From contig JARFXR010000002.1 in NCBI GenBank assembly GCA_029194535.1, forward strand, positions 186,001 through 250,000: a stretch of 64,000 nt of DNA, in the 5' to 3' direction. This DNA comes from Nitrospira sp. (GTDB lineage: Bacteria; Nitrospirota; Nitrospiria; Nitrospirales; Nitrospiraceae). The notes below the pieces were generated by a model, which saw nothing but the letters and a program-made list of their open reading frames with translations, was not told the origin of the DNA and made no database searches. A program made the translations under genes and the position numbers. Below, one piece after another: positions 58,964 through 64,000 of this stretch (within the stretch, counting starts at the first letter, position 1; the number at the start of each line of letters is the position of its first letter).

Positions 58964-61213
58964 TTAGCCTAGCGGGCGTATGGAACGCAAGACCGCAGCC
59001 AGGTCTCGCAACCGGGAGTCGATAGGCAGGGTTTCGACCGGAACAGCATACTTTCTATTCCAATTGGGATGGGCATCGATGGTACCCGGCAGGTTGGTCT
59101 GCGACAGTTCCTCCAAGCCGTCCTCCAGATTGGCCAGCACGACGGCGGACATGCTGCCCGCCAGATAGATATGGATGGCCCGGCAGAGGGTCGGCGTCAT
59201 CGAGGATACGGAGTCCGGGTCGGTAGACAAGCCTTCCGGCAACAAGCCCTCGCGGGCGAGTGCCTCCAGCATATGCCCCTTGTCGCGACGACGGTCCTCC
59301 CACGCTCGGCGCTTTGCCTCATCGTCTCCCAGCATCCCCAATCCGGCCCTGACTTGCAGATCCTCACCAGACCAGAAGCCGGTCAACGTCGGCAGGTCAT
59401 GGGTCCCGACGACGGCGAGCGACTGTTCGGGATATTCATTCGGCGCCTTGCAGGTTCCGTCACCGTGGCGTTCGAAGTAGAAGACGCGATAGGACAGGAC
59501 CCTGGCTTTGGCCAGCTCCTCGCGTACCCAGTCGGGGACGGTCCCGAGATCTTCACCGATCACCAGAGTCCTGGCTCGCACGCTTTCCAGCGCGACGATC
59601 GCGAGCAACTCCTCGAATGGATAGTGCACATAGGTACCCTCCGCGGCCGGTTTTCCGCGCGGAATCCAGAAGAGCCGACAAAGCGCCATCACATGGTCCA
59701 ACCTGATCGCGCCGCCGAATCGGAGGTTGTTGCGCAACAGACGGATGATCAGTTCATAACCACCGGCGCGAAGCGCCAACGGATTGGCCGGCGGCAACCC
59801 CCAATTCTGTCCCTGCGGTCCCAGTGAATCAGGCGGAGCCCCGCAGTCGGCATCGAGCGCCAGCACGGATTGATACATCCAAGACTCGGCTCCGAACCGC
59901 TCCGCTCCGAGCGCCAGATCATTGTATAGCCCGATCGCCATACCCGTCTGTTCGGATTTCCTGCGGTTTTCACCCAACTGCTCCGACGCGACCCACTGGA
60001 TATACTGGAAAAACCGCAAACGCTTCCGATGCCGCTTCCCATACTCGCGGACAGCCGGTCCAGGGGACTGAAACTGAGCAGGCCAATCGCGCCACGACGA
60101 CGCCTTGGGTTGAATCAGTCGGCGTTCCTCCTCCAGCGTCTGGAACGTAGCATACAGCTCCAGCGGCTCCCCTTCGGCCCGAATAAACCGCTCGAGGAGC
60201 TTGGCGCGGGCAGTCTTCGGTTCCAAATCAGGCTCGTTTCCGACATAGTGCTCTTTCAAAAACTGCCGATAGGCCAGATCCAGCAAACCGCGCTTCGCTG
60301 CGGCAATGACGTCATAGTCCACTCGGCGGTTTTCGCGCAGAGCCTTGAGCTTGGATTGAAACTCCGGGGCCTGAAACTGACGCTGCGCCTCCGGCGACGC
60401 CCAGAATTCCGGCAGCCGCTCGAGATCGACATAAAGCTCGTTGAGAAACAGACGGGTGACCGGTGCATAGGGACTGGTATGGTGTGGCGCGCTGTTGCGC
60501 AAAGCGTGCAGCGGATTGAGCCCGATCAATCCGGCACCGAGTGAGGCGCCGGCCCACTCGACTACCGCGCCCAGATCCGTAAAGTCCCCGCAGCCCCAAT
60601 TCCGATTCGACGACAAGGCATAGAGTTGCAGCGCTATGCCCCAGATACGCCGGTGATCCGCAAGCGCGGGCGGCAGATAGCATTGCTGAGGCGCCACGAT
60701 CAGACGGATCGTCCCGGACGAGCCGCCTACCAGCCCGGAAGCCTGAACCGTCACTGTGTAGTAACCGATCGACAAATCACCCGGTAATCGGCAGCTCAGC
60801 CGAACGTGACGTTGCCCACCCACGAAACGGACTTCGGCCGCTGACAATCCCGGCCCCGCCTCGCCGGTCTGTACTGGTTGGCCACTTTCATCGCTGATCG
60901 TCCACTGCACCACGACGGACCGTTCCTTGCCGTCTTCAAGCATCAGACAGCAGAAGATGACCGCTTCACCTGTGCCTTCGCGCACCACCAGCACCGGCTC
61001 ACAGGGACGGCACCAAGAAGCCTCATCCCAATCTCGCAAGGCTTTGGAGAGGTCTTCGGTCGAATGGACATTGAATCCCATTGCCGAGAGGATCGCCCGC
61101 TTCGTGTCATCGGAGGCGACGTGCAGCGCCCCGCCGATGTCGTAATATTCCGAGGCGATGCCGACCCGTTCTGCCAGTGTCGCGAGGAGAGAAGAATCGT
61201 AGGAAGCGGACAT
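58964..61213 (-). CDS. malQ: 4-alpha-glucanotransferase (amylomaltase, GH77)
   Basis: Transfers alpha-1,4-glucan segments between maltodextrins. 749 aa, the long MalQ type with an N-terminal ~170-residue beta-rich module. GH77 catalytic residues: nucleophile Asp506 (GGAIRLDHVM), acid/base Glu554 (VIGEDLGTVP) and Asp606 (VGTHDLPTLTGFW). It lies upstream of the two-component genes, facing the same way but 138 bp away; no functional link was shown. It complements GlgP at 41339. Confidence 0.94.
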   Translation of the reverse strand: MSASYDSSLLATLAERVGIASEYYDIGGALHVASDDTKRAILSAMGFNVHSTEDLSKALRDWDEASWCRPCEPVLVVREGTGEAVIFCCLMLEDGKERSVVVQWTISDESGQPVQTGEAGPGLSAAEVRFVGGQRHVRLSCRLPGDLSIGYYTVTVQASGLVGGSSGTIRLIVAPQQCYLPPALADHRRIWGIALQLYALSSNRNWGCGDFTDLGAVVEWAGASLGAGLIGLNPLHALRNSAPHHTSPYAPVTRLFLNELYVDLERLPEFWASPEAQRQFQAPEFQSKLKALRENRRVDYDVIAAAKRGLLDLAYRQFLKEHYVGNEPDLEPKTARAKLLERFIRAEGEPLELYATFQTLEEERRLIQPKASSWRDWPAQFQSPGPAVREYGKRHRKRLRFFQYIQWVASEQLGENRRKSEQTGMAIGLYNDLALGAERFGAESWMYQSVLALDADCGAPPDSLGPQGQNWGLPPANPLALRAGGYELIIRLLRNNLRFGGAIRLDHVMALCRLFWIPRGKPAAEGTYVHYPFEELLAIVALESVRARTLVIGEDLGTVPDWVREELAKARVLSYRVFYFERHGDGTCKAPNEYPEQSLAVVGTHDLPTLTGFWSGEDLQVRAGLGMLGDDEAKRRAWEDRRRDKGHMLEALAREGLLPEGLSTDPDSVSSMTPTLCRAIHIYLAGSMSAVVLANLEDGLEELSQTNLPGTIDAHPNWNRKYAVPVETLPIDSRLRDLAAVLRSIRPLG

Positions 61214-61295: not shown

Positions 61296-61715
61296 ATGAC
61301 CACCTCCCGTGATTTGGTGCGATTCGGGACCAGTTCTTGGGCCTACGAACGGGCAGGCACTGCTCTACCATCGGCCTGATCCTAAGGGCCGTTTCAACCA
61401 AGACACGCTCGCGGAGTATGCCGCGCCCCGGTTCAGTGAGGAAGAGCCCCCGCTGTTTCGCGAATCGGTGCTGAATCCGGCGACAACAGACCTTGGCGAC
61501 AGGCTCGGCCCGTTCATCTTCGAATATCAGCGCTGGGGCGTCAAACTGCCGGTCATTCTGGATCGACTCGATCACCTCTTGGAACAGCTCCCATCCGGCC
61601 CGCTCTATGGCGTCAAAGTCCGGAATCCAACATTGCTCGGCCGTCATTACGGCGAGATCCTCCGGGCGCACAATGTCATCCACATACACAACCGCTTAAC
61701 CTCTAACAAGGTACA
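61296..61715 (+). pseudogene. Decayed DUF72-family gene (frameshift plus internal deletion)
   Basis: Starts as a normal DUF72 protein (MTTSRDLVRFGTSSWAYE) from ATG 61296, then stops after 27 codons in that frame. The family sequence continues one frame over: YHRPDPKGRFNQDTLAEYAA, then EEEPPLFR. About 90 residues usually between PLFR and GPFIFEFQR are missing, and GPFIFEYQRWG, GPLYGVKVRNPTLLGRHYGEIL follow directly. The C-terminal ~100 residues are absent. Its frame runs into the next gene, so an automatic caller may fuse them. Confidence 0.75.
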
Positions 61716-61917
61716 CATCAAGCTGTCGGCTGCGACCGGCCGCACTGCCATACCCGGCAAACCCGAGTCTCGCACCAAATACGACCCATCGGTCGCGCAT
61801 CTACCGGTGAAGCCCACCCCGGCTGCTTTTATGTCGCACGATGCCCATGGTACGATGTCCACGTCATTCCGCAGTCGGGCTGATGCTCGATCGTCCCGAC
61901 GGCAGAGGAGGCGGCCC
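61716..61917. other. 202-bp spacer between the DUF72 pseudogene and the secreted protein
   Basis: The frame stays open but has no recognisable protein content. It ends in AGGAGG six bases before the ATG at 61918, the ribosome-binding site of the next gene. Confidence 0.55.
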
Positions 61918-62646
61918 ATGGCGATGTTATACAGACGTACGACGTCACGAGTCCTTGGTCTCTTGCTTCTTGCTCCGTTGATCGCCATAGCTGCGGAGGC
62001 CGCCCCGGAGAAGACCGAAGTGACCGGCGAGTACCGGTACACATTTCATGAGCCAGAGACACCGTCCGATGCCCTCACGCTGGCCTGCCGCGAAGCCTGG
62101 AGACTGGCAGTGATCGAATCGCCGTTATATCGCGACCAGACCGCCAACGTCGTCGATTCGGTGCTGCTCCGTGAGGTGGCCAACAATCTCGTGACCAAGT
62201 ACGTCAAGGATCAGCAGATTCTCGAGCAATTCCAGCGCGGCAAGACCGTCACGTGTCGAGTCCGGGGGACGCTGGTCGTGGACGAGAGCGTGAAAGCGAT
62301 TCGAACTCAACTCGCTGGCGGTAGTGGCACTGAGGATAGCCTCGATCAGAACCGCTCGCTCAAGCTCCTCGCAGTCCGCGAAGAAGCCAACGGCACCATC
62401 TCGGTCGAATACCAAGCGTTGCGGCGTCTCGATTGGCTGAACACGAGCTACCAGGGCGGATTGCGAGAAACAGCGGACATTATGGTGGACTTCTACGACG
62501 ATCAAAAGTTTCTGATCCGCACCGAGCGTTACCCCGCCAGGCGCAACGCGTCCGGGGACGATGTCATGAACCCCGGCGCCACCGGCGTCCTGAGAGTTCC
62601 CAAGCCGCTCGCCGCCAAGACCTACCGCGTCTGGCTCGTGAAATAG
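61918..62646 (+). CDS. Secreted protein of unknown function
   Basis: 242 aa from ATG 61918, supported by AGGAGG at 6 bases. Signal peptide RVLGLLLLAPLIAIAAEAA. The mature part has ALTLACREAWRLAVIESPLYRDQ and REVANNLVTKYVKDQQILEQFQRGKTVTCRVRGTLVVD, reminiscent of the FlgT N-terminal/LPP20-like fold, but the match is by eye only. A flagellar role is not supported by neighbours. The 5' extension upstream belongs to a pseudogene. Confidence 0.7.
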   Translation: MAMLYRRTTSRVLGLLLLAPLIAIAAEAAPEKTEVTGEYRYTFHEPETPSDALTLACREAWRLAVIESPLYRDQTANVVDSVLLREVANNLVTKYVKDQQILEQFQRGKTVTCRVRGTLVVDESVKAIRTQLAGGSGTEDSLDQNRSLKLLAVREEANGTISVEYQALRRLDWLNTSYQGGLRETADIMVDFYDDQKFLIRTERYPARRNASGDDVMNPGATGVLRVPKPLAAKTYRVWLVK

Positions 62647-62757: not shown

Positions 62758-64000
62758 CTAGCGTTCGCGCAGGCTCTCCTGGAGCGATTTCAGCAGTGGA
62801 CTCAGGAGATATTCGATGATCCGTCGTTTCCCGGTCCTGATTTCGACGGAGACGGCCATGCCGGGCGAGAGGTTCACCGTTTTCCCATTGACGAGGATGG
62901 TGGACCGTTCCAATCTCACCCGGGTGGCGTAGACCAGTTGCCCGGCTGCCTGTGACGGACGCGGTTCTACTGCGCTCGGCTTCTCCCGGTCGAGCGGGAC
63001 CGCGTCATCCGACACCGTGATCACCTGACCGGGGATCGTGCCGTAGAGCGTAAAGGGAAAAGTTTCCACCTTGATCTCGACAGACTGACCTTCCTGGACG
63101 AACCCCACATCTTTGTTTTCGACCTGCGCCGCCACTTCCACAGGATGATCTTCCGGCACCACGACCAACAGCTGTTGAGCCGGGGAGACGACTCCCCCCA
63201 CCGTGTGCACAGCCAGTTGCTGGACGACTCCATCGATCGGCGTCGTGAGCCGCTGAAGCGCCGCCTTTTGTCCGGCCTTCGTCACCTCTTGGGCGAGAGA
63301 GGCGGCTTTGGTTGCAAGAGCCGCCAGCTCCGCCTGCTTGGTTTGCTGAAATTCCGAGACGAACACCCGATAGTTCTTTTCGCTTTCCGCCAGGGCCGCA
63401 CGGTCTTGAATCAGCTTCATGCGCTGTCCGGCCAATTCCTGTGTCTTGTCGATTCGCTGCTCCTCGGCCTGGAGATACTCCATCTTCGTCGCGGCCTGAA
63501 ATTCCAGGAGCGACCTAAACGTTTCGGCCTTCTCAGTTTCCATGGGTACGGTCGCTTCCAGCCGACGGATGTCCTCTTTGGTTTGCTCGATGGCGGCCTT
63601 CCGTTGATCGATCACATACAGCGCCGCCTGCAGGCGCGCTTGATACTCGGACAGCTCATCGCGGAGGAGTTGTTGCTGCAAACCGACATAGGTTACATCT
63701 CCATCAGCGGGGGGCTCGAAGGTCGATTGACCGGCGATCAATGCCCGCAAGCGAGCCGCTTCGATTCTGGCGGCCCAGTATTCGTTTGATGCCCGGTCTC
63801 GATCAGCTCGGTTCAACGTCGGGTCAAGATCAATCAGCACATCGCCCCGTTTGACGACGTGACCATCCATAACATGAATGGCGACGATGACACCGGCTTC
63901 ATAGGGTTGAATCACTTTGGAATACCCGCTGGGGATGATCCTGCCTTGGGCGATGGCCACGATATCGATCCAGCCGAAGGTGGCCCACAGCACGCCGGAC
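62758..64000 (-). CDS. HlyD-family membrane-fusion protein (truncated at right window edge)
   Basis: At least 411 residues, open to base 64000, so the N-terminal transmembrane start is probably outside. LWATFGWIDIVAIAQGRIIPSGYSKVIQP is the HlyD/type I secretion adaptor signature, followed by a long helical hairpin (about residues 60-230) and a lipoyl-like barrel with GMAVSVEIRTGKRRIIEYLLSPLLKSLQES at the end. It would link an inner-membrane ABC exporter to an outer-membrane channel. The GTG at 63993 is an internal position, not a reliable start. Confidence 0.88.
   Translation of the reverse strand, partial: SGVLWATFGWIDIVAIAQGRIIPSGYSKVIQPYEAGVIVAIHVMDGHVVKRGDVLIDLDPTLNRADRDRASNEYWAARIEAARLRALIAGQSTFEPPADGDVTYVGLQQQLLRDELSEYQARLQAALYVIDQRKAAIEQTKEDIRRLEATVPMETEKAETFRSLLEFQAATKMEYLQAEEQRIDKTQELAGQRMKLIQDRAALAESEKNYRVFVSEFQQTKQAELAALATKAASLAQEVTKAGQKAALQRLTTPIDGVVQQLAVHTVGGVVSPAQQLLVVVPEDHPVEVAAQVENKDVGFVQEGQSVEIKVETFPFTLYGTIPGQVITVSDDAVPLDREKPSAVEPRPSQAAGQLVYATRVRLERSTILVNGKTVNLSPGMAVSVEIRTGKRRIIEYLLSPLLKSLQESLRER

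Follow-up and report, generated by a model that had tools for sequence, protein, structure and literature searches.

Organization of the malQ-DUF72-SEC locus

The window analyzed here is a stretch of 64,000 nucleotides (G000:C2:186001-250000) from a Nitrospira sp. genome of 3.98 Mb in 5 contigs. It contains malQ on the reverse strand, followed by the remnant of a DUF72 gene and then, on the forward strand, by a gene for a probably secreted protein, which we call SEC. The nearest relative compared, G001, is represented by a single contig of 4,084,817 bp. In G001, in Nitrospira sp. CR1.3 (G003) and in other genomes, an intact DUF72 orthologue occupies the same site between malQ and SEC. The features of the locus, in positions of the window, are the following.

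58967-61213, reverse strand: malQ, 4-alpha-glucanotransferase (Pfam Glyco_hydro_77, E 4e-108), the conserved upstream neighbour, divergently oriented
61296-61349, forward strand: DUF72 remnant, piece 1, with the original start and codons 1-18 (tblastn with G001 residues 1-18, 78% identity; DNA alignment)
61309-62646, forward strand: spurious 445-aa open frame with a GTG start, composed of remnant, filler and SEC; absent in relatives
61350-61379, forward strand: 2-bp loss (2-bp gap after GAA relative to G001 and CR1.3) and the resulting stop of the original frame, TGA 61377-61379
61354-61461, forward strand: DUF72 remnant, piece 2, G001 codons 21-56, in the frame of the 445-aa ORF (tblastn, 69% identity)
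61453-61461, forward strand: junction of a 201-bp in-frame deletion, with a single copy of the 9-bp CTGTTTCGC, where both flanks overlap in the alignment
61462-61703, forward strand: DUF72 remnant, piece 3, approximately codons 124-204 (tblastn 61% identity, E 7e-31; blastn 73%)
61704-61821, forward strand: 118-bp filler in place of the C-terminal coding part of DUF72 and the beginning of the spacer (no alignment with G001)
61822-61917, forward strand: conserved SEC leader, which contains CATGGTACGATG and, at 61904-61911, the ribosome-binding stretch AGAGGAGG (blastn against G001, 73%, E 6e-12)
61918-62646, forward strand: SEC, intact, 242 aa, probably secreted, stop included (88% identity to G001, residues 7-242; dN/dS 0.12)

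Anatomy of the DUF72 remnant

The leader upstream of the DUF72 start at 61296 is well conserved in the alignment with G001 and CR1.3. The ATG at 61296 begins MTTSRDLVRFGTSSWAYE, and the frame is closed by the TGA at 61377-61379 after exactly 27 codons because 2 bp are missing after codon 18. An earlier sequence-only reading of this DNA had described the N-terminus cut short after 27 codons. It had also located the remainder of the gene in another frame, and tblastn indeed placed pieces 2 and 3 in the frame of ORF 61309-62646. With the intact G001 protein as query, residues 1-18 and 21-56 were matched (E 1.6e-13), and the third matching stretch corresponded to residues 121-204 (E 7e-31). Matches at such E values put the kinship with DUF72 far beyond chance. 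The homology stops near 61703, slightly before position 61715, up to which the alignment of frames had been proposed. The C-terminus is missing, as had been supposed: about the last 93 codons are gone and 118 bp stand in their place. In total, about 160 of the 297 codons are missing from this copy, whose frame is disrupted. Among the columns that are invariant in 29 full-length homologues (n=82), 24 are preserved in the remnant, 8 are altered and 50 are absent. The 2-bp loss and the absence of 67 plus about 93 codons disrupt frame and domain so that the fold cannot form, and the remnant presumably yields no product.

Intact relatives at the locus score above the Pfam cut-off for DUF72 (PF01904, YecE-like TIM-barrel; 113.8 bits for G001), whereas the family is undetected in the 445-aa frame, for which Pfam and NCBIfam searches gave no match at E up to 1. 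The kinship of the remnant is visible only against a close relative. The solved DUF72 structures are TIM barrels, and the family has no assigned function; a relationship of the fold to DNA-damage endonucleases and an action on damaged DNA have been proposed (PMC11791011, PMC3828134). A phmmer search of solved structures with the G001 DUF72 protein found nothing at E 0.001. Among the papers listed on DUF72 and on Nitrospira pseudogenes, titles and abstract openings pointed to none on this locus.

An internal deletion of about 90 residues had been proposed. The deletion exists, and its size is exactly 201 bp, or 67 codons. In intact relatives, a 9-bp stretch recurs in similar form at a distance of exactly 201 bp, and the corresponding codons are separated by 201 bp in each of the 28 homologues compared. 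At least 7 of the 9 bases are alike between the two sites in 8 of 27 full-length homologues (the broken G076 being excluded); among 6394 control pairs with equal spacing, 0.4% are this similar. In 19 of the 27, fewer than 7 bases are alike, and in G001 itself 6 of 9, so that a loss mediated by short direct repeats is plausible and not proven. The filler, for its part, had no other match at E 0.1 in 7 genomes of the genus. Its source was not found in the window's own genome, where the 15 other hits were short and the best of them covered 26 bp at E 0.49.

Repeated loss of DUF72 across the family

The sample comprised 59 malQ-SEC loci of the window's family, from which G032 and G106 were dropped (SEC broken), leaving 57. 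Between malQ and SEC, a full-length DUF72 gene is present at 29 of these loci. A remnant is present at 10, four of which (G191, G081, G023 and G026) were identified from short matches only (E 2e-4 to 8e-4). No trace is seen at 18, including five deep ones (G009, G024, G028, G197 and G198) that may never have had DUF72 here. The gene is therefore lost or broken at 28 of the 57 loci. The distance from malQ to SEC is 916-2182 bp where DUF72 is intact (median 1176, n=29) and 231-1311 bp at the traceless loci (median 301, n=18); in the window it is 704 bp. Lesions elsewhere differ from those described above: G126 has a single stop, G073 a stop plus an internal loss, and G176 and G036 retain only an N-terminal piece. 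The DUF72 gene of G076 is broken by a frame change, and its blastp homology extends only to residue 190 of 291.

On a MalQ tree, the division into intact and not intact loci needs 13 changes, 11 of which are forced by well supported branches. If all of these changes are losses, the gene was lost about a dozen times, a count that long branches (G026, G017) and interspecies gene transfer could shift, this being a quick single-gene tree. The repeated loss or breakage of DUF72 between malQ and SEC is what is new here.

The loss might have been tolerated in the window's genome if a second DUF72 gene, 55% identical (G000:C1:868386-869249), had taken over the work. This paralogue is intact there, and the G001 copy of the same type is a fragment with stops (G001:C1:1806787-1807314, L098). 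Over the 57 loci, however, the paralogue is present for 8 of the 28 lost and 5 of the 29 intact DUF72 loci (Fisher P 0.36), and independent pairs, in which G076 was counted as intact, show no paralogue trend. We therefore consider such a takeover improbable, and these counts give no support to the paralogue as an explanation of the DUF72 losses. Some genomes of the neighbouring genus g5 (G153, G152, G108 and G150) have 7 to 13 DUF72 matches, several of them broken or interrupted by stops, which points to repeated duplication and decay of DUF72 genes of the paralogue type.

The 445-aa run-on frame

The frame of pieces 2 and 3 remains open into the downstream gene, as the sequence-only reading had stated, with 445 codons from the GTG, and it is open for 206 codons ahead of the SEC start. 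It reaches SEC because the internal deletion is divisible by three and because, by chance, no stop codon falls in this frame within the filler. That the spacer (61704-61917) is open in this frame is unremarkable, as 14% of base shuffles also remain open. All 59 loci were searched for DUF72 homology within the open frame of SEC itself, with an overlap of at least 60 bases and with G076 excluded as query. Only the window and G186 were flagged, and a looser version added G007, G138 and G073. G186 was rejected as a DUF72-SEC fusion, since SEC itself is in pieces there and the start assigned to it was an extrapolation that fell inside DUF72. In G007, a frame of 278 codons precedes SEC, but the intact DUF72 gene lies in a different frame. 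After inspection, DUF72 and SEC shared a single open frame at none of the 58 other loci, which bears out the earlier suspicion that a 445-aa protein would be a false fusion.

A true and recent fusion, in which a shortened DUF72 piece was placed ahead of SEC, would account for a frame that really is open so far upstream and for an internal loss that preserved it. Nevertheless, it is most improbable. The fused protein would start from a GTG that is out of frame with the former N-terminus, would be without 50 of the 82 invariant columns and would bury the hydrophobic N-terminus of SEC internally. Moreover, SEC retains its own ATG and ribosome-binding stretch, 14% of shuffled spacers are open as well, and no other locus has this architecture. 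The 445-aa ORF is a genuine open frame but a false gene. A gene caller may report it as a protein that hides the export signal of SEC in its interior, and the annotation would then miss DUF72 at this locus in the inventory of the species. In G002:C75, the frame of the intact DUF72 gene has no stop over 1483 codons and would have to continue across malQ on the opposite strand; such long frames antisense to a gene may also mislead gene callers.

The SEC gene and its leader

The start of SEC at 61918, proposed before from the letters of this DNA, is supported by the alignment of homologues. The ATG is preceded by the conserved purine-rich AGAGGAGG, and both the stretch and the start are identical in G001 and similar in CR1.3. 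Met occupies the start column in 8 of the 28 relatives aligned, one of these 8 being the window, and many of the others were fetched from a later residue. A CATGGTA[GC]GATG block is found without mismatch in G000, G001 and G003, and a CATGGTA-GATG block with at most two mismatches in at least 17 further loci, among those listed; as a promoter element of SEC, this shared block is only suggestive. A simple sigma-70 promoter scan found no site in the SEC leader and one promoter-like site, upstream of DUF72. SEC probably has its own promoter, and it most likely survives unharmed with its own leader and ribosome-binding stretch.

SEC was found in 25 of 198 sampled genomes of the phylum, all 25 of them in the window's family, and the named relatives retrieved are Nitrospira assemblies, including Candidatus Nitrospira defluvii. 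A Pfam search with the window's SEC gave nothing at E up to 1, whereas 19 of 28 SEC relatives match the N-terminal domain of FlgT (FlgT_N) weakly, with a best E of 2.3e-4. The structural model has a mean pLDDT of 78.5 and a pTM of 0.48, and a profile search of solved structures gave nothing convincing. The N-terminal half of the model resembles Helicobacter pylori Lpp20 and Tip-alpha (Foldseek probability 1.00, E about 0.003-0.02), but with low TM-scores (query 0.26-0.31), and the protein carries an additional beta-rich C-terminal half. This likeness, seen in the predicted model, is purely structural and gives no information on function. SEC is probably an exported envelope protein, to judge by an N-terminal hydrophobic stretch seen by eye.

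SEC is fragmentary, split or interrupted by stops in G032, G106, G176, G186, G187 and G189, and therefore erosion at the locus extends beyond DUF72. Next to SEC on the other strand, positions 62758-63999 of the window encode an HlyD-type protein (Pfam) and an apparent ABC exporter, and L169, a very long protein with glycine- and aspartate-rich repeats (by eye), lies nearby. These genes are a probable type I secretion set.

Selection on the remnant and its neighbours

Relative-rate tests compared the window with G001, using G003 as outgroup, and for the remnant the three pieces supplied 129 codons. In the remnant, 21 residue changes are specific to the window and 9 to G001 (P 0.028). At second codon positions the difference is 16 changes to 4 (P 0.007), while third positions are even, with 17 in the window and 19 in G001. 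The neighbours are also even in their residues (window against G001: SEC 9 and 8, MalQ 29 and 31), and the excess of replacements on the window's branch is confined to the remnant. Between the window and G001, SEC has a pairwise dN/dS of 0.12, MalQ of 0.07 and the remnant of 0.23; the same remnant codons give 0.15 between G001 and G003. Since the value for the remnant is still 0.23, either the gene was lost recently or constraint continued in part. Selection on the remnant is relaxed, partially or recently, and the relaxed time is short relative to the split, whereas malQ and SEC have been kept under constraint. The downstream gene had been called a real secreted protein: its reality is borne out by an intact frame under constraint, and its secretion is probable.

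The stretch is known from a single assembly, but it is hardly credible that the DUF72 gene is really intact and was misassembled or misread, as such an error would have to produce the 2-bp loss, the 201-bp loss, the replaced 3' end and the excess of second-position replacements, while malQ and SEC on either side show no errors.

Decay of the gene and its meaning

The stretch is almost certainly the pseudogene of an ancestral DUF72 gene between malQ and SEC, and its 445-aa frame an accident of decay. In the course that we propose, the ancestor would have had an intact DUF72 gene between these neighbours, and after the split from G001 a small loss would have broken the frame. The 201-bp piece may have been removed by slippage or recombination between the two short direct repeats, probably the route of this loss, and the 3' end together with part of the spacer would have been lost, with unrelated DNA taking their place. 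Ordinary bacterial pseudogenes are alike in their small indels, larger deletions, lost ends, relaxed constraint and intact neighbours. The DUF72 pseudogene is a case of ordinary gene decay, one among repeated losses, and its only oddity is the leftover frame that runs into the next gene.

The malQ-adjacent DUF72 gene is perhaps a conditionally useful one, which Nitrospira repeatedly shed while keeping malQ and mostly SEC; we offer this interpretation tentatively. If it is true, close species pairs with and without the gene would form a natural knock-out series for a family to which no function is assigned. The repeated, independent loss of DUF72 between stable neighbours could help to ask what the gene is for.
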